A stretch of DNA of 64,000 nt from Thalassolituus oleivorans MIL-1 (GTDB taxonomy: Bacteria; Pseudomonadota; Gammaproteobacteria; Pseudomonadales; Oceanobacteraceae). The translations under genes and the position numbers were made by a program. Location: contig NC_020888.1 in NCBI RefSeq assembly GCF_000355675.1, positions 2,711,501-2,775,500 on the forward strand, in the 5' to 3' direction. Shown piece after piece: positions 1,225 through 14,765 of this stretch. Each line of letters opens with the position of its first letter. Position 1 is the stretch's first letter. The notes beneath the pieces are model-generated. The model saw nothing but the letters and a program-made list of their open reading frames with translations. It searched no databases and had not been told where the DNA came from.

Positions 1225-4206
1225 CTATCGGAATGTGCTAATTAATGTGTCGAAGATTTGCCGTGCCACCTGAATTACCTGCGCGCTGGCGTTGTAGGCC
1301 AATTCGTATTTAATTAGGGCTGCTGCTTCTTCATCAAGGTTTACGCCGGAGTTACTGTCGACTGCATTTTGCGAGTTGCGCAATAATACTTCGGCGGAGT
1401 CGCGGTTAATTTGCGACCGACTGGTTACTGAGCCTACGACTTCTACTAAGCGTGCGTAAGCTTCGGTATAACTGGTATTTCCGCTAATAGAGTCTTCTGT
1501 TTGCAACGCGGCCATTGACGATCCGTTACGACTATCGGAGGTGCCATCGGTGTTAAATTCGATGGTAAATTCATCTCCGGCCTGGGCTAAGCCCGATACA
1601 TTAACGTCAAAACCAAAATGCACGGGTTCGCCGACGGGGTCGGTGTCGAATAAATTATTGCCCGGCGGAGCAATGCTAAGGCTGTAATTTTCGTCGAGCA
1701 CGACTTTTAGTTGGCCACCCATAGTGAGCTTGGATGAGCCATTAATGCCGGTTGCGTTCATTTCTAAGCGCGGCGTAAAGCTGATTTTTCCACGTTCGTT
1801 AATGCCGACGTCTAGGTTGCCTGAAAATACGTAACCGGAGTTTTCGAGTTCGGTTCGAATACCATCAAGCAGTTCATCGCCTGTGGCGTAAGTGCCGGTC
1901 ATTTCGATACTAAAAGTGCCCTGCCCCGGTACGTCAAATTCGTAGGTATACGGCCCGCCTTCGCTAAAATCGTAGCCTTCGTATTCACTCAATGCGGTAA
2001 AGGTGGCATTGCCGGTTTCACGAAGGTCGGTATATTCGCCGTTGCCTACGGAAAATCCGTCTCCTACATCACCGGTAATTTCTAGGTTAACGTCTTCACC
2101 ATCGAGCGAAATAATGGTTAGTTTAGCGCCGTCGCTGCGTGCGACTAAGCCTTGATCTTGAAAGTCGATGTTGGCGTTAATTCGTTCGGCTAAGAAATCA
2201 AGAGTAATAGGATCTGGGACTTCTTCTGGGTAGCCGCTGGAGTATTTGGTTTGGTTAGGGCCAAGTGTGTCGGTAAGCACGATGCCATTAACGCTAATCA
2301 CCATGTCTTGGAAGGGGTTAGGATCGTTGGTAATTCCGGTTATTTCGACGGTGGTACGCGCCGATGCTTCTACCCCGTCGCGCTTACTTAATGCTTGGGC
2401 AATTTCTTTTGCAGAAGCATTTATTGAGGTAATTAATGTGGGCTGTGTGGTTACTTTTCCGGTCGTTGGATTGGTATAGCTGATACCAATACGTTCTGGA
2501 AAGAAACCATTAACTGAGTCGACTATCGCAGCGGGGGATGCCGCCTGATAGGTTGGCTTTGTCGGTAGTACGCCACCAAAACTGGTAAATGCAGTTTTGC
2601 CTTCGTCGGCTGGCAACATGGAGTTGCTAATACCCGGCACAAAGGTTTGGTTCATTAATGGTGGAAATAATGGTATCGGATTACCTGGGTCGGTGTTGTC
2701 CAATACGTCGTAGGTGGTTGGCGATGTAAATCGAATAATGAGTGGCGGGTCGAGTTCGCCTTCATTCATTAGATAGGTGGTGTTGGTGTCGTAAACTTCA
2801 CCTTGGGTTATTTCACCACTACCACGGTTACCAATGGCTGCATCGGTAACAATAGGAGACGCCAGCGCTAATTGCTCAGCGCGGGTGATGTTCATGTCTA
2901 TTTTTGCGGCTTCGTTACGCGTTGGTGTCAGTAAGAAGTTGTCGCCTTTTTGAAACGAACCACTTTCAAAACGAATTTCAAAACCATCGACTTCGATACT
3001 GTCGGGAAAGCCGCCACTGAGGGAGTTGGTTTCTAATATTTTATTGTCACTTAAGCGTTTTATGCGGTAGGTGAAGTCGTCTGGCCCTGGAAATTCGACT
3101 TCGTAGTCGCTGGTTGTAAGTTCACCGGCGTCGATAATATGTACCGACATAATGCGGTCGTTCGGTTGGGCATTGTTACGATCACCCAATACACGCTCGT
3201 AGGTTTTTAATGGATCGTTAATGTCTTCAAAAAAGTTTTCACCTTTTAAGCCATCGTAGTCGATACCTAATTTATGCTGGTCGTTCATTGTTTGCGCTAT
3301 GGTGAGCGCGATGCGACCAAGACCATTCATAGTAGGATCGAGTACTTGTTCGCGAAAATCTAGAATACCGCCAAGCTGTCCACCGGTAATTTCACGGGTG
3401 ACGTTTTGCACGGAATTTCCTTTACGAAAATAGATATCAACACGGGATGGGTCGTTGGCACCAATGTCGGTAAATACTTCGTTAAAATCATTACCAATTA
3501 CTAACGACTGGCCATTACCAATAAATACGTTGATCGATGAACCGTCTTGTTCGACGACGTTCACTTCTACGTACTCTGATAATTGTTTTAATAGGCGGTC
3601 GCGCTGATCGAGCATTTCGCTGGGTTCGTTACCTTGAGCTGATGCGGTAGCAAACGAGATTTGTTCGTTGAGCTCAGCGATGGCTTCAGCAATGGTGGTA
3701 ATTTCACCGGCAATGACTTCCATTTGGCCGTTAATAATGTCGTTTTGAGCATTTAAACGATCTGAGATGGTAGTAAAGCGGTCGATTAAGCTGTTGGCTT
3801 CGCTGATGACTACTTCACGAGCGGCGAGCGATGATGGATCGTCAACCGATGATTGCAGGGCACCAAATAAGTTTTCTAAGCCCGGTTGTAAACCGGTGCC
3901 CGCATCGGCCAGTAGGCTGTCGATTTGTGAGGCGTTGACCGCGAGCGCGTTAAATTCGTTAAATGTGGAGGTATCAAGGCGTACTTGTTCGGTTAAAAAT
4001 TGGTCGTAGACGCGACGAACAGAATCGACATTAACGCCCGAACCTACCCATACACCGGCAGAAAACTGGGAATCGTTTTCGCCAAAGCTAACTTCTTGGC
4101 GGCTATAACCTTCGGTTCCGGCGTTGGTAATGTTGTTACCGGTAATGGTTAACGCAGCTTGGTGCGCTTTTAAACCTGAAATACCAACACTTAAAATATC
4201 GCCCAT
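1225..4206 (-). CDS. flgK: Flagellar hook-associated protein 1, unusually long
   Basis: FlgK is the first hook-filament junction protein, exported through the flagellar type III apparatus. The N-terminus carries the rod/hook family signature (SGLKAHQAALTITGNNITNA) and the C-terminus the matching helix (LDEEAAALIKYELAYNASAQ). At 993 residues it is well beyond the roughly 550-680 of common FlgK proteins. The extra length lies in the middle, in Asp/Gly/Thr-rich beta-type sequence between about residues 330 and 900, which in this family is exposed on the outside of the structure. It lies 2 bp from flgJ and 9 bp from flgL, as in a normal flgJKL operon. Confidence 0.96.
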   Translation of the reverse strand: MGDILSVGISGLKAHQAALTITGNNITNAGTEGYSRQEVSFGENDSQFSAGVWVGSGVNVDSVRRVYDQFLTEQVRLDTSTFNEFNALAVNASQIDSLLADAGTGLQPGLENLFGALQSSVDDPSSLAAREVVISEANSLIDRFTTISDRLNAQNDIINGQMEVIAGEITTIAEAIAELNEQISFATASAQGNEPSEMLDQRDRLLKQLSEYVEVNVVEQDGSSINVFIGNGQSLVIGNDFNEVFTDIGANDPSRVDIYFRKGNSVQNVTREITGGQLGGILDFREQVLDPTMNGLGRIALTIAQTMNDQHKLGIDYDGLKGENFFEDINDPLKTYERVLGDRNNAQPNDRIMSVHIIDAGELTTSDYEVEFPGPDDFTYRIKRLSDNKILETNSLSGGFPDSIEVDGFEIRFESGSFQKGDNFLLTPTRNEAAKIDMNITRAEQLALASPIVTDAAIGNRGSGEITQGEVYDTNTTYLMNEGELDPPLIIRFTSPTTYDVLDNTDPGNPIPLFPPLMNQTFVPGISNSMLPADEGKTAFTSFGGVLPTKPTYQAASPAAIVDSVNGFFPERIGISYTNPTTGKVTTQPTLITSINASAKEIAQALSKRDGVEASARTTVEITGITNDPNPFQDMVISVNGIVLTDTLGPNQTKYSSGYPEEVPDPITLDFLAERINANIDFQDQGLVARSDGAKLTIISLDGEDVNLEITGDVGDGFSVGNGEYTDLRETGNATFTALSEYEGYDFSEGGPYTYEFDVPGQGTFSIEMTGTYATGDELLDGIRTELENSGYVFSGNLDVGINERGKISFTPRLEMNATGINGSSKLTMGGQLKVVLDENYSLSIAPPGNNLFDTDPVGEPVHFGFDVNVSGLAQAGDEFTIEFNTDGTSDSRNGSSMAALQTEDSISGNTSYTEAYARLVEVVGSVTSRSQINRDSAEVLLRNSQNAVDSNSGVNLDEEAAALIKYELAYNASAQVIQVARQIFDTLISTFR

Positions 4207-4208
4207 GA

Positions 4209-5270
4209 TTATTCTCCTGCCGACGGTGTGGCGGTGGACGAAATTTCAGTTGGCGAATTATTGAGTGCTTGTTTCAGCACGGTATTGAGTAATTCACTGT
4301 CTGAAATTCGTTCGATTTTTGCGCCATACTGCGGGTCGGTCGCATAACCGGATTGTTGTAATGCATGGCCGTATTCGCCAGCCGATAATTGTTGATCTAG
4401 GGCATCTTGATAACGTGAAGCCGAACGTAGGAAGTTAGCGTAATCTTGCACGCCTTCTTCTAATGAGGCGTATGAGCGGAATTCAGCGCGCTCGTTTACG
4501 CGAACACCGTTACGGTATTCATGAGTAGTGACTTCTACTTTGCTGCCATCCCAACGAGGATCGGCTTTAATACCAAATAGGTTATGGCTGGTGTTGCCTT
4601 GTTCATCGGCAATCATGTACTTACCCCAGCCAGTTTCGAGCGCCGCTTGCGCTACGATGGCTTTTGGATCAACACCTAAATCACCGCCGACTTTTTCTGC
4701 GAGTGGATACAAAGCGGCAACGAACTCCGCAGGCGTGGCAAACTGTTGCCCCTTACTGCCAACGCCGCTAGCAACGATTGCTGTGGTATTTTCGCTATTG
4801 GGCGCATCTTGATTTGCGCTGGCGGCTGCGCTGCTGTCTTCTTTGATTTGCTCTAATTCTTCATCAACTTTTTTAATTGCATAAGCCAATGACGTGGACT
4901 GACGACGGTCGTTTAATTTAGAGAAATCGAGCGGTTTTTCTTCGCCGTTCTCACCGTACTGAACCATGAGCTGACGGTGTATCACCTCGGCCAAACCCGT
5001 GCCCTGCCCCGCTGTCAGCGATACAGACATCTGATCGTCGTACATATTTTGGTAAAAATCAGACTCTGGAGACGAGAACATGTTGTCTTCGGAAAATACC
5101 TTACCCGCGTCACGCATAGACGACAGCATCATGCCGATAAACATCGACTCGAACTGTTTCGCGACTTCCATTAATGCCGCGCCTTTGTCTTCTTTTCCGA
5201 GCTTACGGATGCCCTGAAGGCCATTCAGATCGGTAAAAACATTAGCAGCGTTGGTTTGGGTTTGGATCAT
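4209..5270 (-). CDS. flgJ: Flagellar rod-cap protein with peptidoglycan hydrolase domain
   Basis: Two-domain FlgJ of the gammaproteobacterial type. Residues about 1-110 are the rod-binding domain (KQFESMFIGMMLSSMRDAG). After a Ser/Ala/Asn-rich linker, residues about 175-335 are the glucosaminidase domain, with the motif AIVAQAALETGWGKY holding the presumed catalytic Glu and a downstream HNLFGIKAD block. It digests peptidoglycan so the rod can cross the wall. A strong AAGGAG ribosome site precedes the start at 5270. Normally flgI lies directly upstream on the same strand; here flgI is inverted and a REP array sits in its place, with a separate sigma-54-type promoter at 5295-5310. Confidence 0.97.
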   Translation of the reverse strand: MIQTQTNAANVFTDLNGLQGIRKLGKEDKGAALMEVAKQFESMFIGMMLSSMRDAGKVFSEDNMFSSPESDFYQNMYDDQMSVSLTAGQGTGLAEVIHRQLMVQYGENGEEKPLDFSKLNDRRQSTSLAYAIKKVDEELEQIKEDSSAAASANQDAPNSENTTAIVASGVGSKGQQFATPAEFVAALYPLAEKVGGDLGVDPKAIVAQAALETGWGKYMIADEQGNTSHNLFGIKADPRWDGSKVEVTTHEYRNGVRVNERAEFRSYASLEEGVQDYANFLRSASRYQDALDQQLSAGEYGHALQQSGYATDPQYGAKIERISDSELLNTVLKQALNNSPTEISSTATPSAGE

Positions 5271-5294: not shown

Positions 5295-5310
5295 TGCAAA
5301 GAGTTTGCCA
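5295..5310 (-). promoter_or_regulatory. Sigma-54-type promoter for flgJKL
   Basis: Read on the minus strand, TGGCAAACTCTTTGCA matches the sigma-54 consensus TGGCAC(R)N4TTGCA with one mismatch and correct GG/GC spacing. The predicted start is about 15 nt before the flgJ ATG. It lies just downstream of the REP array, so flgJKL can be transcribed without read-through from flgF. Confidence 0.75.
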
Positions 5311-5328: not shown

Positions 5329-5683
5329 TCGCGGCTACGAACAAAATACGTTCGTTGAATCGCTCCTACGGGAAGATAATATATTTTGAATGTATAGATG
5401 ATACTCAGGAATATCTGTAGGAGGCACTCAGGGAGCGAAGCGAGCAGTGCCGATTTATCGCGACTACGAACAAAATACGTTCGTTGAATCGCTCCTACGG
5501 GAAGATAATATATTTTGAATGTATGGATGATACCCAGGAACGTCTGTAGGAAGTACTCGGGAATATCTGTAGGAGGTACTCAGGAATATCTGTAGGAGGT
5601 ACTCAGGGAGCGAAGCGAGCAGTGCCGATTTATCGCGACTACTAACAAAATACGTTCGTTGAATCGCTCCTACGGGAAGACGG
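5329..5683 (-). repeat. REP palindrome array between flgJ and flgI (reverse orientation)
   Basis: Three copies of a palindrome beginning TCGCG(A/G)CTAC and ending GAATCGCTCCTACGGG (5329-5372, 5459-5502, about 5631-5683) alternate with two copies of a second element, AGGGAGCGAAGCGAGCAG. Between them lie short tandem units of about 23 bp with the core TGTAGGAGGTACTC. The palindrome folds through ACGAAC/GTTCGT-type inner arms and GCGATT/AGTCGC outer arms. The orientation is opposite to the arrays at 7.25-8.52 and 10.94-11.14 kb, making inverted repeats around flgI. Confidence 0.93.
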
Positions 5684-5714
5684 TATGTTTGAATCTGTAA
5701 TACACGTAAGGAAT

Positions 5715-5730
5715 AGGCACACCTTCTGCA
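5715..5730 (+). promoter_or_regulatory. Sigma-54-type promoter for inverted flgI
   Basis: AGGCACACCTTCTGCA matches TGGCAC(R)N4TTGCA at 14 of 16 aligned positions' scheme, with GG and GC at exactly the right separation. The same C at the first T of TTGC occurs in the flgF promoter. The predicted start is near 5742, about 45 nt before the flgI ATG at 5787. It reads toward flgI in its present, inverted orientation. Confidence 0.68.
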
Positions 5731-5786
5731 TACATACCTGTAATTGAGGAAAAAACGGCGCTGTTGCCGATAAAACAGGTATAAAA

Positions 5787-6884
5787 ATGAAAATCTGGCG
5801 TCAATTATCAGTCATGCTCGTACTGCTAACAGCCTCAACGGCCTACGCAGAGCGAATCAAAGACATCACCAGCATCTCTGGTGTTCGTAGCAATCAACTC
5901 GTCGGCTATGGCCTCGTCGTGGGCCTTGACGGCACCGGTGACAAAGCACCGTTCACCACTCAAACCTTCCTCAATATGATGAGTGAATTCGGCATCACTT
6001 TACCAGTAGGCACCGATCCAAAACTTAAAAACGTTGCTGCTGTGTCGGTTACCGCCGATTTACCACCGTTCGCAAAACCCGGACAACGCGTAGACGTCAC
6101 CGTAGCATCATTAGGCAATGCTAAAAGCTTACGCGGTGGTGCATTACTCTTTACACCGCTCAAAGGTGCAGACGGCAATATCTACGCCGTTGCACAGGGT
6201 AATTTAGTGGTTGGCGGATTTGGTGCTGAAGGTAACGACGGATCGAGTATTAAAATAAACGTGCCGAGCGTAGGACGAATTCCAAATGGCGCATCGGTAG
6301 AACAAGCCGTACCTAATAATTTCGCCCGTGGCGATAGTTTAATTTTTAATTTAGACCAACCCGATTTCACCACCGCGCGTGCATTGGTCGATAAAATTAA
6401 TGACATGCTTGGCCCAAATACCGCAGAAGCACTCGATGCTACCTCAATTCGTGTAAGCGCCCCACGAGATACAAGCCAGCGCGTTGCTTATTTATCCGTT
6501 ATTGAAAATCTAGTGGTAGAAACCGGAAAAGAACGCGCCAAAGTTATTATTAACTCGCGCACCGGCACCATCGTGATTGGCCAAAACGTAATGATCGAGC
6601 CCGTAGCCGTCACCCACGGTAGCTTAACCGTTACTATTACCGAAGATTTTGCTGTCTCTCAGCCGAATGCCTTAGCCGAAGGTGAAACCGTCGTCGTACC
6701 TCAAACCAACATCAATATCGACAACGGCGCAGACAGCCGCATGTTTAAATTTGGTCCAGGCGTATCGCTGGACGATATCGTCAAAGCAGTTAATGAAGTT
6801 GGCGCAGCGCCTGGTGATTTAATGGCTATACTTGAAGCAATGAAACAAGCCGGTGCGCTTAAAGCGGAGTTAATTGTCATATGA
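5787..6884 (+). CDS. flgI: Flagellar P-ring protein, inverted relative to the operon
   Basis: FlgI forms the periplasmic P ring around the rod, in the peptidoglycan layer. The 365-residue product has a Sec signal peptide (cleavage near [10 protein letters not shown]) and the conserved start of the mature protein ([20 protein letters not shown]). It is full length and ends with the usual ALKAELIVI. It overlaps the next gene by 4 bp. In related clusters flgI lies between flgH and flgJ on the same strand; here it runs on the opposite strand between two inverted REP arrays, with a promoter match at 5715-5730. No damage is visible, so it is probably still expressed. Confidence 0.98.
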
Positions 6885-7183
6885 AAAAAGATCTGTTCGT
6901 ACAGGTAAAAAATCTCTCGCTGGAACTGCGCTCATTAATTCGCCAAGGCGTTAAAGAAGGCGTAGAAGAACGAATTAATAAACGTAATGAACTAATGCAA
7001 GAATGGTTTGCCGAAATAAACGACCTGATTAATTTAACCAGCGAACAACAGGTATTTTTAGAAGATTTACTGCAAGAAGAGCAAGGTTTACTAGAACAAC
7101 TGCAGGACGAGCAAAAACAAATTGTCGAACATAACCAAGGGCAAAATAAGCTCAATCGTTATCGTCAAATATTGCAGCACTAA
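6881..7183 (+). CDS. Small coiled-coil protein encoded after flgI, unknown function
   Basis: A 100-residue, highly charged protein with no signal peptide or membrane segment. It is almost entirely helical/coiled-coil by composition (Glu, Gln, Leu, Lys), for example from [17 protein letters not shown] onward. Its start overlaps the flgI stop by 4 bp (ATGA), so translation is likely coupled, and the gene travels with flgI inside the inverted segment. Size and composition resemble export chaperones of the FliT/FlgN kind, but that is only a resemblance. A terminator follows at 7212-7235. Confidence 0.8.
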
Positions 7184-7211
7184 AACGATTTTCTGAGGGC
7201 TCCACTCCTTG

Positions 7212-7235
7212 ACCACCGCTTGCGGTGGTTTTTTT
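7212..7235 (+). terminator. Rho-independent terminator of the flgI unit
   Basis: ACCACCGC and GCGGTGGT form a perfect 8-bp stem with a minimal loop, followed by a run of T's. It ends the inverted two-gene unit just before the REP array. Confidence 0.9.
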
Positions 7236-7252
7236 CTGGCTGGGTCAAATAT

Positions 7253-7604
7253 CGGCACTGCTCGCTTCGCTCCCTGAGTACCTCCTACAGTTTTACCTTG
7301 AGTACCTTCTACAGTTTGGCCCTGAGTACTTCCTACATATTCAACCAACGGTGTTCTGTAGGAGCGATTCAACGAACGCTTTTTGTTCGTAGTCGCGATG
7401 TGATCTGTGAAGGTCATCAATATTCATCCTCATCGGCACTGCTCGCTTCGCTCCCTGAGTACCTCCTACAGTTTAGCCCTGAATACCTCCTACAGTTTAG
7501 CCCTGAGTACCTTCTACAGTTTGGCCCTGAGTACCTCCTACATATTCAACGAACGGTGTTCTGTAGGAGCTATTCAACGAACGCTTTTTGTTCGTAGTCG
7601 CGAT
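7253..7604 (+). repeat. REP palindrome array downstream of the flgI unit
   Basis: Two long palindromes beginning GTAGGAGC(G/T)ATTCAACGA and ending TTCGTAGTCGCGATG (7358-7400, 7562-7604) alternate with two copies of the second element, CACTGCTCGCTTCGCTCCC. Tandem 24-bp units with the core GAGTACCTCCTACA follow each second element (three, then four copies). The array is opposite in orientation to the one at 5.33-5.68 kb. Open frames across it (7220-7712 plus strand, 7091-7420 minus strand) only translate repeats. Confidence 0.93.
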
Positions 7605-7614
7605 GCTGGGGTGA

Positions 7615-8073
7615 TTACAACCAAACGGCATCCCAGTAAGGATAATCGCCGAGTCGCTTCACCAGGCCGGCCCTCAGCGGATTGGCTACGATATATCGCG
7701 CTGCTTGTTTAAGATCTTCGTCTTTACGTATCGCTCGATCATGAAATGCGGGGGCCCATACTTTATTCCCGAATCCACGCTCTCGAATTATTCGTGCAGA
7801 ACCTGATTTAAGTAGCTGTATGGTTTTACTGAGATCGCCATTCTCACCGAGTTCTATTAGCCAGTGGATGTGGTCAGGCATTAACACCCAACTTAATAGT
7901 GAATTACCTAATAATGAGGTTGGTTTAGTAAAAAATCTACAGGTTGGAATTGCGTATTTAGGATCAGAGAATATTGGTGTGCGGTCGTTGGTCGTGGCCG
8001 TTACAAGATAAATGCGGCCAGACTCTGAAAATCGGCCTTTGCGTAAATTAGAGTGCCCTTTGAGCATATTCAA
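7615..8073 (-). CDS. REP-associated tyrosine transposase (RAYT, TnpA_REP/Y1 family)
   Basis: A 152-residue single-domain HUH nuclease. RAYTs nick REP palindromes and are the presumed agents of their spread. Visible family marks are the N-terminal strand GRIYLVTATT, the metal-binding HUH motif in LMPDHIHWLIEL, and the presumed nucleophilic Tyr in QAARYIVANPLRAGLV. The length is normal and the frame intact. It is flanked on both sides by REP arrays containing the repeats found nowhere else in the window in such density, the usual arrangement for a RAYT and its cognate REPs. It lies between flgH and inverted flgI, inside the broken flagellar operon. Confidence 0.95.
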   Translation of the reverse strand: MNMLKGHSNLRKGRFSESGRIYLVTATTNDRTPIFSDPKYAIPTCRFFTKPTSLLGNSLLSWVLMPDHIHWLIELGENGDLSKTIQLLKSGSARIIRERGFGNKVWAPAFHDRAIRKDEDLKQAARYIVANPLRAGLVKRLGDYPYWDAVWL

Positions 8074-8161
8074 TCCTTGAATTTATGTCCCTATTCATCG
8101 TTTTAATTTAATAGTGATTCAATTTCAAGAAGGTTCGTGCAGATTGAGTAATGATTTATTC

Positions 8162-8520
8162 TTGTAGGAGCGATTGAACGAATGCTTTTTGTTCGTAGTC
8201 GCGATGTCATCTGTGAAGATCATCAATACTCATACTCATCGGCACTGCTCGCTTCGCTCCCTGAGTACCTCCTACAGTTTTACCTTGAGTACCTCCTACA
8301 TGTTCAATGAACGATATTCTGTAGGAGCGATTCAACGAACGCTTTTTGTTCGTAGTCGCGATGTCATCTGTGAAGATCATCAATACTCATACTCATCGGC
8401 ACTGCTCGCTTCGCTCCCTGAGTACCTCCTACAGTTTTACCTTGAGTACCTCCTACATGTTCAATGAACGATATTCTGTAGGAGCGATTCAACGAACGCT
8501 TTTTGTTCGTAGTCGCGATT
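8162..8520 (+). repeat. REP palindrome array between the RAYT gene and flgH
   Basis: Three long palindromes (about 8164-8204, 8319-8361, 8478-8520) and two second elements in the same orientation as the 7.25 kb array. A unit of 157 bp is tandemly duplicated almost perfectly (8204 onward and 8361 onward), showing recent unequal exchange or slippage. The array ends 3 bp before the flgH stop codon. Plus-strand open frames here are repeat translations, not genes. Confidence 0.93.
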
Positions 8521-8522
8521 CG

Positions 8523-9200
8523 TTAAAACGGCCACCACGGTGAGGTTAATATGCGGTCGGCCCAGCCTTGTTTGGTGGAGTTGTTAAGCGCTCCACGTCC
8601 GCCAAATGAGATACGTGCGTCGGCGACTTTGCTGGAGGCGACTGTGTTATCTGGGGTGATGTCTGCCGGGCGGACGAGTCCTTGGATGCGAATATATTCT
8701 TCGCCTTCGCTTAGGGTTAACCATTTTTCGCCGCGAATTCTTAATATTCCGTTCGGTAATATTTCGGCAACGGATACGGTTATTTGGCCGCTTAAACTAT
8801 TCGAACGGTCAGCTTCGCCTTTGCCGCTGAATTTTCGGTCGGCTGAGGTGCTGGTGTCGAGATTTAGGTTTTTAAATCCTGGCACTGTGCCCATTAAACT
8901 CGGTACGGCGAGGTCGTTGGTCGATGATTTGTCGGCGTTGGTGGCGGCGGATTTACTCGATTGATATTGTTCGTCGAATATCACGGTAATGATGTCGCCG
9001 ACACGGGTGGCTTGCTGGTCGGTGTATAAACCTAGGCTGTAGCGCGCCTGATACAGCGAGCCGTTAGCATTAGGTGGTGGCGCTAGGCTTTGCGCGGATA
9101 CAGGGGCGAAGTCTGGGTCGTCAGGAAATACGTCGCGCTCCATGGGAACGGATGTGCAGGCTGGCAATAAAATAACGAGTATTGATGCGATGCGCCACAT
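8523..9200 (-). CDS. flgH: Flagellar L-ring lipoprotein
   Basis: FlgH forms the outer-membrane L ring. The 225-residue product begins with a lipoprotein signal peptide whose lipobox is LLPAC (Cys15). It continues with conserved FlgH blocks, including LYTDQQATRVGDIITVIFDE, ILPNGILRIRGEKW and RIQGLVRPADI. It is last in the flgF-G-H unit; the stop is followed at once by a REP array, where flgI would be expected. An AGGAGG-type ribosome site precedes the start at 9200. Confidence 0.97.
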   Translation of the reverse strand: MWRIASILVILLPACTSVPMERDVFPDDPDFAPVSAQSLAPPPNANGSLYQARYSLGLYTDQQATRVGDIITVIFDEQYQSSKSAATNADKSSTNDLAVPSLMGTVPGFKNLNLDTSTSADRKFSGKGEADRSNSLSGQITVSVAEILPNGILRIRGEKWLTLSEGEEYIRIQGLVRPADITPDNTVASSKVADARISFGGRGALNNSTKQGWADRILTSPWWPF

Positions 9201-10806: not shown

Positions 10807-10822
10807 TGCAGAGGGCGTGCCA
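10807..10822 (-). promoter_or_regulatory. Sigma-54-type promoter for flgFGH
   Basis: On the minus strand TGGCACGCCCTCTGCA matches TGGCACGN4TTGCA with a single mismatch and exact spacing. The predicted start is near 10796, about 30 nt before the flgF ATG. Confidence 0.82.
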
Positions 10823-10937
10823 AGTGTATTTTTGTGTTTTAAATCAATTAGATAGGGATTTTTCGACGGTTTTTATCGCGTCAAAGGAGGAAAAGATATG
10901 GGGGAAGCGGCAAGTGTATGCCGCTTGTGGTGTATCG

Positions 10938-11139
10938 GTAGGAGCGACTCAACGAACGTTTTTTGTGTAGGAGCGACTCAATGAACGTTTTTTGTTCGTA
11001 GTCGCGATTATCGGCACTGCTCGCTTCGCTCCCTGAGTACCTCCTACAATTCAATGAGTACCTCCTACAATTCCATGAGTACCTCCTACAATTCAATGAG
11101 TACCTCCTACCGTTCAATGAGTACCTCCTACCGTTCAAC
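10938..11139 (+). repeat. REP element and 21-bp tandem repeats between flgF and flgE
   Basis: One partial and one complete palindrome (from GTAGGAGCGACTCAA; 10938-11008) are followed by the second element CACTGCTCGCTTCGCTCCC. Then come five head-to-tail 21-bp units starting GAGTACCTCCTAC at 11035, 11056, 11077, 11098 and 11119. The array lies 5 bp beyond the flgE stop, in the same orientation as the 7.25 and 8.16 kb arrays. The period is exactly 21 bp here, against about 23-24 bp in the other arrays. Confidence 0.93.
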
Positions 11140-11144
11140 CTCTA

Positions 11145-14100
11145 TTAAATATTCAGGATGGTCTGGGTCACCTGGTCCATTGTTTCAATGGTTTTGGCGC
11201 TGGCCTGGAAGTTTCGCTGGGCGATAATCAGGCCAACCAGTTCTTCTGAAAGGTCTACGTTAGAGTCTTCAAGTGCCGATGATCGAATCTGGCCGAAGGA
11301 TGCAGTTCTTGGAGAACCAACCGTCGGTACGCCCGATTCAAACGATTCTGCCCAGCCGGTATCCCCTACTGGCGTTAAGCCTTCTGGGTTACGGAAGTTA
11401 GCCAGTGCTACCTGCCCTAATGTTTGTGCTTGGCCGTTGGTGAAGCGGGCGAAGATAATCCCTTCTTGGTCGATTTCAAGGCCGGTTAAGCGGCCGGTTG
11501 AATAACCATTTTGGTTCACTTCGTTAACGGAGAAGCTGCTACCGAATTGGGTGGAGCCGTCCAACGAAATTTGGAAGTTGGAGTTAACCGGTGGATCAAT
11601 TAGTGGAATACCGCCTTCCAACACGTTGGTTGAGGTAAATGCACCCGTTGGATCGCCATTTTCGTCAACTGGGTCCCAGTTGGTGATGAAGATGTCGCCG
11701 GTGGCAATTTCGTCGAGTGTACCGTCTTGGTTAAAGAAGATTTCGAAACGCGCTGCAGTTGGGTCTAAGTTTTCTGGGAATGGCAGTGATGGATCAGGAT
11801 CACCGACGTTTTGCCCGTCAATTAACACGTACATTGCCCAAATATTTTGTTCGTTAGGGCGTGTCGCATCTAACGGTTCTTTTACGAAATATTGGGTCAT
11901 GACGTGGGAGTTACCCAAGCTGTCATAAATTGTGGTTGAGGTTGCGTTGTTGTAGGTATCTTGATCCAGTGGATCGAACGAATTCAGTACATATGGAGTG
12001 AATTCATCTTCGCTCAGTGCGCCAAAAATACCGGAGACAACTGGGTCTGGGTTCGCAAGAATATACCCTTCGTTAAGAATAAAGGTAACCTGCCCACCAA
12101 TGGCTGCGGCGACGTCGGCTGTGGCTGAACCACCTAATACCACTGGTCCTGTATTGTCGGCGCCTTGAATGGTGATGGAGTCGGTTACAACGGCGCTGTC
12201 GATAGAGACATTAATATCTCGGCCAATTTCGTTGTAAATCACGAGGTCGCCATTTTCACTAATTTCAGCAGAAAATCCGGGTAACGTTGTGGCACGGTAG
12301 TTATTAATTTCATCGGCAATGTCTGCCAGTGATGTGGATTCTAATACTTGGCCATTTACGGTTAATTTTAGGTCGTTACCTGGGCTGTTGTACCCCGATA
12401 GCGGAATATTCATGGTGGTTAATGCGGATGCGGTAACGCCCGGCTGTTGGTTAAATATTGAGACAATTTCGTTACCTTCACTGTGCAATGGCAAGGTAAT
12501 TTCGGTCTCTTCGCCATCTGGATCAATCAGGGTAACGGTTTGTTCTGGGTATTCGTTTGATACACCTTCAATACCGGTTACCAGTAGGCTGGAGTCATCT
12601 GGATTGACTTGTAAAATCCCAAACAATTCGGCTGCCGATATATCTGGACCATTAGCAGAGATGTTGGTGATGGAAATAATGGATGCCTCACCCTCGGTAG
12701 TTGCGCTCAATTTTAGAGTGAATTGCGGCGGTACAACATTCGGTTCAATTTCTACCGCGGATGCTTGTATACCAATATAACTGTCGGCATCTTGGCTATT
12801 TAATTGGCGGTTAATACTGGAAGCCAATTGTTGTACTGAGCGATATTCTTCATCGAGAGAAATCAGTACCGAGCCGCTGCGATTTTCAGAATCCGGCGCA
12901 GGTACCGTTAAGTTAATACGAAAGCTGTTGGAGCGATCCACTTCGTTTTGGCCGGTTACGGTAAATAGGCTGTCTAATCCTAATTCAGCTGCCGCTTGTG
13001 GTTCGGCGATGGTTCCTGAGATAGAAACGCCTTCGCCCGCACCGACGTTGCTATTGGTAAATACTAGCTGTCCGCCCACAGCATCGACGGTCACTTTTCC
13101 TGCTAAGCCACCAGCACCAATATACACATCAATTTGTTGTTGAATGGCGACCGCTAATGCATCCAGCGAGGCATAATTTGCCGGTGGAATGGTGATGGTG
13201 AATGGGCCACCACCATTACCGGATGTGCTGGTTACTTCGAGCACAAATTCGTTGTTAGCGAGTACAGGTTCGACACCACCATCGAAGCGGTTATTCGATA
13301 AAAAACCTAAGCTTGTCAGGCTGTAGCCCACTGAGCTAACCGCGTTATCGGCGATTTGTACAAAGTCGCCTTGGGTTGCTGGTGCTTGGGTTTGAAATTC
13401 AATTTTCCCACCATTAACTACCGCAATCACTTCTTCGTTACCAGCACCGGCGGTGGCGGTAATTTGGGTATTAATTTCAGCGACGGCTTCTGTAATTGAA
13501 ACAGCGTTGTAGCTTACGGGAGCAGCACCAAGCCAAGCGGCTTGGCTCAAATTAATTGGGTATGTGCCGCCTGATTCTGCTGCAATGGTGAAGGCTAATA
13601 CGTTACCGCCACCAGCACTAACGTCGAGTGAGCTGTAGTTATTGTCAGCCGTTAATTGGGCAAATTGGCCAGCATCACTAGAGACAATATTCAGTGTTGG
13701 TGTTGCGGTTGTGCGCGTGGTGGTCGATGTACCTGGAATACTGGTGAAATCCGCGGTGATCGGCGTTGAACCAACAAATAAAGTGCTGCCTTGGGTTCCG
13801 GCAATAACACCGCTGTTTGCACCAAATGCAGCATCCCATGCGGCGGTGTTGGTGGCAGCAAAGCTAGTACCGTTAGTGGCATTGTAGCCTGCACGTTGAA
13901 TCACTAACGCACCCGTCGTGGTGTCTTGGGTGGCAGTCAGCTGCTGTGAACCAAAGGTGGCATCAAGCGCTGCTTGCACGTCGCTTAAAATGGCATTGAC
14001 TGTAGTTGGGCCAACTAAGCCGGTTAATGTGACGGTTTGCGCACCAGCACCATCGCCAACGTCGATATCCATTGTAATGGCACCGTAACCGGCACCGGCA

Positions 14101-14765
14101 GCAACCGTGGCAAGATCGGTCGCAAATGGCATAGTCGCTGGTGTGCCTGCGGTTGTTGGCTGTCCTGCCGCCGACAAAATAGAACGCGTTGATTCGGCAA
14201 TACCGGCATCAGCAGCACCAATGGCCAAACCATTTGATACTAATTGCAAACCTTGTTCTTGTAGTACTAAGGCACCCGCATTGAGGTTTAATATCGACGA
14301 TGCTAATGATGTTAACCGTGGCGCTTGGTTGGAGATTTGAATTTGAATATCGCCTAAAACACCACTAACTACACCGCTGTCATTGGCGTCGTAACCCTGC
14401 AAGCGCGAGCCATTGTTGGCAACGACGTAACCGTCTTTATCTAGAGAAAAGATACCTGAACGGGTGTAAGAAATACTGCCGCGGTCTTCAAGCACGAAAA
14501 AGCCGTTTCCATCGATGGCTAAATCGAGGGCGTTTTCTGTGCCGCTGATATTACCTTGAGAAAATTGTTGGCGAACGTTATCCACCATAACGCCGCTACC
14601 CACAGGCTTTAGACCTGTGCCTAATAAAGTGCTGGTATATACGTCGGCAAATTCAGCACGGGATTCTTTAAAACCAATGGTGCTGGCGTTGGCAACGTTA
14701 TTACCTGTTACCTCAAGATCCGTTGAGGCAGCCCGAATTCCACTTAAACCAATATTAAAAGACAT
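11145..14765 (-). CDS. flgE: Flagellar hook protein, unusually long
   Basis: FlgE polymerises into the hook. The N-terminus MSFNIGLSGIRAASTDLEVT with NNVANASTIGFKESRAEFAD and the C-terminus SEELVGLIIAQRNFQASAKT are typical. At 1206 residues it is about three times the usual 400. A very large Ala/Thr/Gly/Asn-rich insertion of beta-type sequence occupies roughly residues 150-900, which would form extra domains on the hook surface. A canonical FlgE stretch (LDQDTYNNATSTTIYDSLGN) resumes near residue 940. The frame is intact. It is last in flgB-C-D-E. Confidence 0.97.
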   Translation of the reverse strand: MSFNIGLSGIRAASTDLEVTGNNVANASTIGFKESRAEFADVYTSTLLGTGLKPVGSGVMVDNVRQQFSQGNISGTENALDLAIDGNGFFVLEDRGSISYTRSGIFSLDKDGYVVANNGSRLQGYDANDSGVVSGVLGDIQIQISNQAPRLTSLASSILNLNAGALVLQEQGLQLVSNGLAIGAADAGIAESTRSILSAAGQPTTAGTPATMPFATDLATVAAGAGYGAITMDIDVGDGAGAQTVTLTGLVGPTTVNAILSDVQAALDATFGSQQLTATQDTTTGALVIQRAGYNATNGTSFAATNTAAWDAAFGANSGVIAGTQGSTLFVGSTPITADFTSIPGTSTTTRTTATPTLNIVSSDAGQFAQLTADNNYSSLDVSAGGGNVLAFTIAAESGGTYPINLSQAAWLGAAPVSYNAVSITEAVAEINTQITATAGAGNEEVIAVVNGGKIEFQTQAPATQGDFVQIADNAVSSVGYSLTSLGFLSNNRFDGGVEPVLANNEFVLEVTSTSGNGGGPFTITIPPANYASLDALAVAIQQQIDVYIGAGGLAGKVTVDAVGGQLVFTNSNVGAGEGVSISGTIAEPQAAAELGLDSLFTVTGQNEVDRSNSFRINLTVPAPDSENRSGSVLISLDEEYRSVQQLASSINRQLNSQDADSYIGIQASAVEIEPNVVPPQFTLKLSATTEGEASIISITNISANGPDISAAELFGILQVNPDDSSLLVTGIEGVSNEYPEQTVTLIDPDGEETEITLPLHSEGNEIVSIFNQQPGVTASALTTMNIPLSGYNSPGNDLKLTVNGQVLESTSLADIADEINNYRATTLPGFSAEISENGDLVIYNEIGRDINVSIDSAVVTDSITIQGADNTGPVVLGGSATADVAAAIGGQVTFILNEGYILANPDPVVSGIFGALSEDEFTPYVLNSFDPLDQDTYNNATSTTIYDSLGNSHVMTQYFVKEPLDATRPNEQNIWAMYVLIDGQNVGDPDPSLPFPENLDPTAARFEIFFNQDGTLDEIATGDIFITNWDPVDENGDPTGAFTSTNVLEGGIPLIDPPVNSNFQISLDGSTQFGSSFSVNEVNQNGYSTGRLTGLEIDQEGIIFARFTNGQAQTLGQVALANFRNPEGLTPVGDTGWAESFESGVPTVGSPRTASFGQIRSSALEDSNVDLSEELVGLIIAQRNFQASAKTIETMDQVTQTILNI

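Follow-up and report, generated by a model that had tools for sequence, protein, structure and literature searches.

The window, a stretch of 64,000 nucleotides from the genome of the oil-degrading marine bacterium Thalassolituus oleivorans MIL-1 (G000), harbors a flagellar gene cluster in which flgK, flgJ, flgH, flgG, flgF, flgE, flgD, flgC and flgB all lie on the minus strand (flgB, flgC, flgF and flgG being named from rod-family matches together with their position). Opposed to them in strand are flgI and a gene for a small helical protein, CC. Four arrays of REP repeats (A to D) are interspersed among these genes, and a gene for a REP-associated tyrosine transposase (RAYT), to which the original prediction made no reference, lies between arrays B and C (Table 1). 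The profile-named genes bear out the original prediction that flgI and a 100-residue coiled-coil gene occupy the plus strand among minus-strand flg genes, and arrays A, B and C occur where it had placed them, the first being reversed relative to the other two. The order of the gammaproteobacterial cluster is flgBCDEFGHIJKL. The window resembles that cluster in gene content and in its sigma-54-like promoters, and the relatives considered here are collinear with it, whereas in the window flgI-CC is reversed, an extra gene, CC, accompanies flgI between flgI and flgJ, and RAYT is inserted. FlgK (993 aa, 1225-4206), FlgE (1206 aa, 11145-14765) and the flagellin of the same genome (1219 aa, G000 2663524-2667183) look unusually long for proteins of these kinds. 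The assembly of G000 is a single contig, and the genome measures 3,920,328 bp (PMC3630401; PMC4149008, in part). The first 12 bases of flgI, ATGAAAA(A/T)CTGG, are common to 6 of the 7 other genus members, the exception being G007.

Table 1. Features of the flgI region, in positions of the window
Feature	Position	Strand	Remarks
flgJ, first gene past the inversion	4209-5270	-	NCBIfam TIGR02541, 262 bits
sigma-54-like flgJ promoter	5295-5310	-	TGGCAAACTCTTTGCA; directly outside array A
REP array A	5329-5690	-	between the flgJ and flgI promoters
sigma-54-like (-24/-12) flgI promoter	5715-5730	+	AGGCACACCTTCTGCA; within the inverted block, between array A and flgI
flgI (P-ring protein)	5787-6884	+	Pfam PF02119 (FlgI), 473.8 bits; NCBIfam NF003676, 471 bits
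CC, 100-aa helical (coiled-coil) protein	6881-7183	+	overlaps the stop of flgI and moves along with that gene
terminator-like hairpin and T run	7211-7237	+	after CC; 8-pair stem
REP array B	7250-7606	+	between CC and RAYT
RAYT (REP-associated tyrosine transposase)	7615-8073	-	152 aa; HIH (HUH-type) motif; NCBIfam NF047646; Pfam Y1_Tnp, 40 bits
REP array C	8159-8520	+	separates RAYT from the flgH stop codon; 157-bp units in tandem
flgH, last co-directional gene ahead of the inversion	8523-9200	-	Pfam PF02107, 196 bits
sigma-54-like site upstream of flgF	10807-10822	-	top score in the window
REP array D	10934-11138	+	between flgE and flgF

The flgI-CC unit and its promoter-like sites

Orthologues of CC are found between flgI and flgJ in relatives and could be aligned from 24 genomes (located by tblastn). 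The same search gives no match in five more loci (L027-L031), which at the place of CC hold reading frames that are alike at their ends and 95-108 aa long (57 aa in L031). The predicted structure of CC consists of two helices, one of them short and the other long (mean pLDDT 84, pTM 0.52), and a fold search returns no match with E below 0.001. A likeness to chaperones of the FliT/FlgN type was considered for CC and dropped: the protein matches no Pfam family above the cut-off, and its best profile match among solved structures is a DNA polymerase (E 0.011).

Promoter-like sites were scored with a weight table built from the sigma-54 consensus. Among 127,970 window positions the flgI site ranks sixth and the flgJ site third, scores that are equalled by 4 and 0 of 2000 shuffles, respectively. 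Four of the other five sites in the top seven precede flgF, flgA, flgB and flgN; the remaining one (46213, rank 4) falls inside an unrelated reading frame. The flgJ site reaches at least 12.5 in 28 of the 31 genomes scored and 9.9-11.5 in the remaining three. The flgI site reaches at least 12.5 in all eight genus members with flgI (G000-G004, G006-G008) and in 1 of the 22 family members scored from other genera (G009, where the gap between flgH and flgI is 3.6 kb). Given this strong site, and the weaker ones in G025, G029 and G033 (9.9), the flgI promoter is not wholly confined to the genus. Since seven of the eight genus members are uninverted at flgI and carry the site nonetheless, the predicted private promoter is older than the inversion, which runs counter to the original suggestion that it rescued flgI after the event.

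The hairpin that follows CC is terminator-like in form, and the 76-nt stretch around it folds barely better than shuffles (z -0.60); by eye, no such hairpin is present directly after CC in G001, G004, G006 and G008. A sigma-28-like -10 octamer ahead of flgI (GCCGATAA, 5766-5773) was rejected as a promoter candidate: it is absent between flgH and flgI in the loci of 14 relatives, and no good -35 is seen by eye.

REP arrays and the transposase

The repeats of the arrays are headed by GTAG and occur both as inverse pairs and as tandem copies. For the repeat GTAGGAGCGATTC a hairpin is predicted (z -1.8 and -2.6 against shuffles), and its partner repeat, GTAGGAGGTACTC, is no more stably folded than shuffled sequence (z about +1.2 and +1.3). 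The outermost unit of A (5329-5369) recurs in inverted form as that of C (8478-8518), with 93% complementarity over 41 nt, and no exact inverted match between A and either B or C exceeds 40 nt. The likeness of B to C is 91% over 196 nt, compared with longest matches of 63-64 nt between A and either of them (63 nt for A and C). Among the four arrays, it is D that holds the longest match to A (83 nt, 92.8%, inverted).

The transposase passes the curated REP_Tyr_transpos model NF047646 with 135.4 bits against a cut-off of 80. Its HIH motif reads within MPDHIHW, and the tyrosine present in ARYIVANPLRAG is presumably the catalytic one. Among the genes annotated at 1-20 kb, it is the only one that encodes a DNA-processing protein. 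In the REPtrons (REP or BIME arrays with their RAYT) of Escherichia coli and Pseudomonas, palindromes of 20-50 nt with a GTAG head, many of them per genome and mostly intergenic, are arranged as inverse pairs and tandem copies around an HUH-type RAYT; the window resembles them in the GTAG heads, in the pairs and tandem copies, and in a RAYT with an HUH-type motif. The RAYT of the window is 43-45% identical to the sister RAYTs at the same place and falls outside their group in the tree: those found at the flg loci of G001, G004, G006 and G008 group together as a clade (92/91), and the position of the window RAYT is weak. Its closest matches are two RAYTs of G016 (55 and 54%), on other contigs than flgI of that genome. 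Given its low identity and separate position, the window RAYT may be an independent gain or replacement, or it may be one and the same gene as in the sisters, strongly diverged.

The REP of the window (GTAGGAGCGAYTCAAYGAACG, with as many as 3 mismatches allowed) occurs 72 times in G000, and no copy is seen in the seven genus members searched; a reversed control pattern has none in G000 and three in G002. As many as 53 of the 72 copies lie in a 73-kb stretch (2,649,720-2,722,631, 1.86% of the genome), the right end of which is the flg cluster (window position 1 to about 11.1 kb). Counted as 1-kb clusters, 16 of 30 fall there (binomial P 2e-20, which is only a guide because the stretch was chosen post hoc). 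This clustering differs from Pseudomonas fluorescens SBW25, where REP spacing beyond 200 bp is no different from random (PMC3116915, in part). The genes scanned in the stretch include those for a FleQ-like regulator, the flagellin, a class II aminoacyl-tRNA synthetase and a peptide chain release factor, together with polysaccharide and GDP-mannose genes.

At the flg loci of G001 and G006, and at those of G004 and G008, RAYT sits amid REP families other than that of the window. These families are common to the four genomes, with one further copy in G003. For the first of them, 14 of 34 copies in G001 and 8 of 22 in G006 are on the contig of the flg cluster; for the second, the fractions are 28 of 43 in G004 and 25 of 47 in G008. 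The REP adjacent to RAYT thus differs between lineages at the same place.

Gene order in relatives

FlgI and FlgH were searched in 165 genomes of the order (drawn evenly, at least 90% complete), and each was found in 122. FlgH lies on the same contig within 20 kb for 131 of 136 FlgI matches; the other five, three of which are weak fragments, have no flgH on their contig and were dropped. The two genes share a strand, flgH first, in 130 of these pairs (119 genomes), and the sole opposite pair is that of G000. The inversion is therefore not characteristic of any wider group sampled. Relatives that lack REPs and share the inverted flgI, which would speak against an origin through REPs, were sought and not seen: flgI is inverted in none of the 119 other genomes with a scorable pair, and it is uninverted in the seven other genus members that have it. 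Both flgI and flgJ lie on one contig in 28 genomes of the family; in 26 of these they are collinear, the exceptions being G000 and G008 (the count leaves out G003 and G007, where they are on different contigs, G005, G028 and G032, which give no flgI match, and G021). No description of such an arrangement was found in the parts covered of the literature on REPs and RAYTs, flagellar inversions and the distribution of REPINs.

The order in the sister genomes G001, G004 and G006 is flgH-flgI-CC-RAYT-flgJ-flgK, with RAYT antisense and REPs within the stretch. CC and RAYT are convergent there, as they are in the window, where array B separates them; RAYT is antisense to flgH in these sisters and sense to it in the window. 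Reversal of flgI-CC alone leaves RAYT on the wrong side, and reversal from A to C restores the sister order. Judged by this order, the turned block is flgI-CC-array B-RAYT, bounded by arrays A and C (about 5.33-8.52 kb). The proposal of a REP-mediated inversion thus stands in so far as the block is bounded by REPs, and its limits have to be widened: the segment first proposed (exactly 5690-7250) is too short, and the block extends through RAYT and array C. The exchange itself would lie somewhere within the arrays.

A further inversion at the locus distinguishes G004 from G008, draft genomes of two close species that show about 91% identity in this region. Positions 126,370-133,001 of G004 match 68,630-62,016 of G008 in inverted orientation (91.7% over 6.7 kb), between one flank, towards flgH, that is collinear over 8 kb at 91.1% and another that is collinear with REPs included (74% over 2.7 kb). 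The inverted block consists of RAYT, flgJ, flgK and flgL (the last named from its sequence), and both of its ends fall within REP arrays (L101, G008 C10:62016-68630, against L039/L108). Since G004 has the usual order, it is G008 that carries the turned state, and a REP-bounded inversion has thus occurred a second time at this locus. The two arrays of G004 share direct exact matches as long as 24 nt but no inverted one that reaches 16 nt, so an origin by simple homologous recombination is not supported there. Both exceptions to collinearity, G000 and G008, are among the five genomes with a RAYT at this place (2 of 5 against 0 of 23; one-sided Fisher P about 0.03, by hand), where the search for RAYT used the family model in 13 genomes and, in the flg loci compared, tblastn with the window RAYT as query. 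This association is no more than suggestive.

Other changes are seen at the same gene borders. Extra DNA separates CC from flgJ in G002 (about 15 kb; L037/L098, C23: 69.5-84.4 kb) and G020 (11 kb; L105), and flgH from flgI in G009 (L106) and G024 (2.2 kb; L104). In G003, contigs end right after CC and right before flgJ (L038, C6 start; L100, C18 end), which suggests that a repeat was left unresolved by the assembly at the same place.

Origin of the inverted block and its consequences

The reading that we favor, at a probability of roughly three in four, is that a block of about 2.5-3.2 kb (flgI-CC-array B-RAYT) was inverted via the REP arrays at its ends, and that the change is fixed and near neutral and does not act as a switch. 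The ancestral order would have been that of the sisters, flgH-(REPs)-flgI-CC-(REPs)-RAYT(antisense)-(REPs)-flgJ. Recombination between array A, at the flgJ end, and array C, at the flgH end, would then have turned the block, by a RecA-type exchange across some 40 nearly identical nucleotides or by an exchange started by RAYT nicks. The event may have been tolerated because flgI-CC was already a self-contained unit, with a sigma-54-type promoter inside the block and probably a terminator of its own, and because flgJ-flgK-flgL had a sigma-54-type promoter outside it. Both promoters would be in use, and in MIL-1 the inverted state is presumably fixed.

The original prediction had offered a motility switch and a fixed rearrangement with a private promoter. 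The latter fits, since the flgI site turns along with its gene. The former finds no support: with the flgI site inside the block and the flgJ site outside, neither gene would be parted from its predicted promoter in either orientation. A reversible switch, in which the block flips and P-ring synthesis, and so motility, follows its orientation, would find its material in the inverted repeats that flank the block and in RAYT, a DNA-processing enzyme, inside it. A programmed flagellar inversion also exists in Clostridioides difficile, where a 154-bp leader with 21-bp repeats is inverted by the tyrosine recombinase RecV (PMC5386303, in part). As in that system, inverted repeats surround a segment at a flagellar operon; unlike in that system, whole genes and a promoter are turned, with no such recombinase nearby (no serine, PF00239, or tyrosine, PF00589, recombinase match within 0.8 Mb, the nearest being at about 0.85 Mb). 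Furthermore, frequent exchange between A and C is not apparent from the arrays, since the likeness of B to C so far exceeds the longest match of A to C, and no sister genome with a scorable pair, in a set of one genome per species, carries the flgI inversion. A switch is thus improbable. MIL-1 itself is motile, with 1-4 polar flagella (PMC3630401; PMC4149008, in part).

A selected change is slightly less probable still. With RAYT co-directional behind flgH, and flgI deprived of read-through from flgF-flgG-flgH, the new order could have a graded effect and have been selected for it; the sense orientation of RAYT in the window, against the antisense one in G001, G004 and G006, agrees with this reading, which is drawn from gene position. 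Excision of flgI-CC and its reversed reinsertion, driven by RAYT or by other transposition, in place of inversion in situ, is very improbable: the convergent order of CC and RAYT is retained, a single inversion accounts for all junctions, and RAYTs move REPs and are not known to move gene blocks of 1.5 kb. What can be said for it is that TnpA-REP of E. coli processes single-stranded REP in vitro (PMC8266576, in part). The block could also have been joined the wrong way round at the repeats during assembly, an artefact about as improbable as selection of the new order. MIL-1 was assembled from 100-base reads (PMC3630401), for which arrays of 350 bp are difficult, but the 40 nt of longest exact inverted match is far below read length, so that a wrong join there is unlikely, and 400-bp pairs, 3.6-kb mate pairs and 294x coverage were available (PMC3630401).

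Beyond the fixed inversion favored here, a bolder and rather doubtful reading is that RAYT actively reshuffles the flagellar units of the genus. REP families that differ between lineages around RAYT would accumulate near the cluster and breaks would fall at those REPs, turning modules with private sigma-54 promoters (flgI-CC and flgJ-flgK-flgL) without loss of function; this would be a RAYT-driven route of operon rearrangement.

On the favored reading, the flgI region of MIL-1 would be a natural example of how a conserved operon comes apart: a private promoter is present first, and repeats then render an inversion harmless. With two distinct REP-bounded inversions at a single locus of this genus, it can be asked whether loci with REPs and a RAYT rearrange more often, and the sister pair G004 and G008 offers a tractable comparison. 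What may give the locus lasting interest is that here, in this genus, flagellar modules around a RAYT have been turned more than once between REPs.
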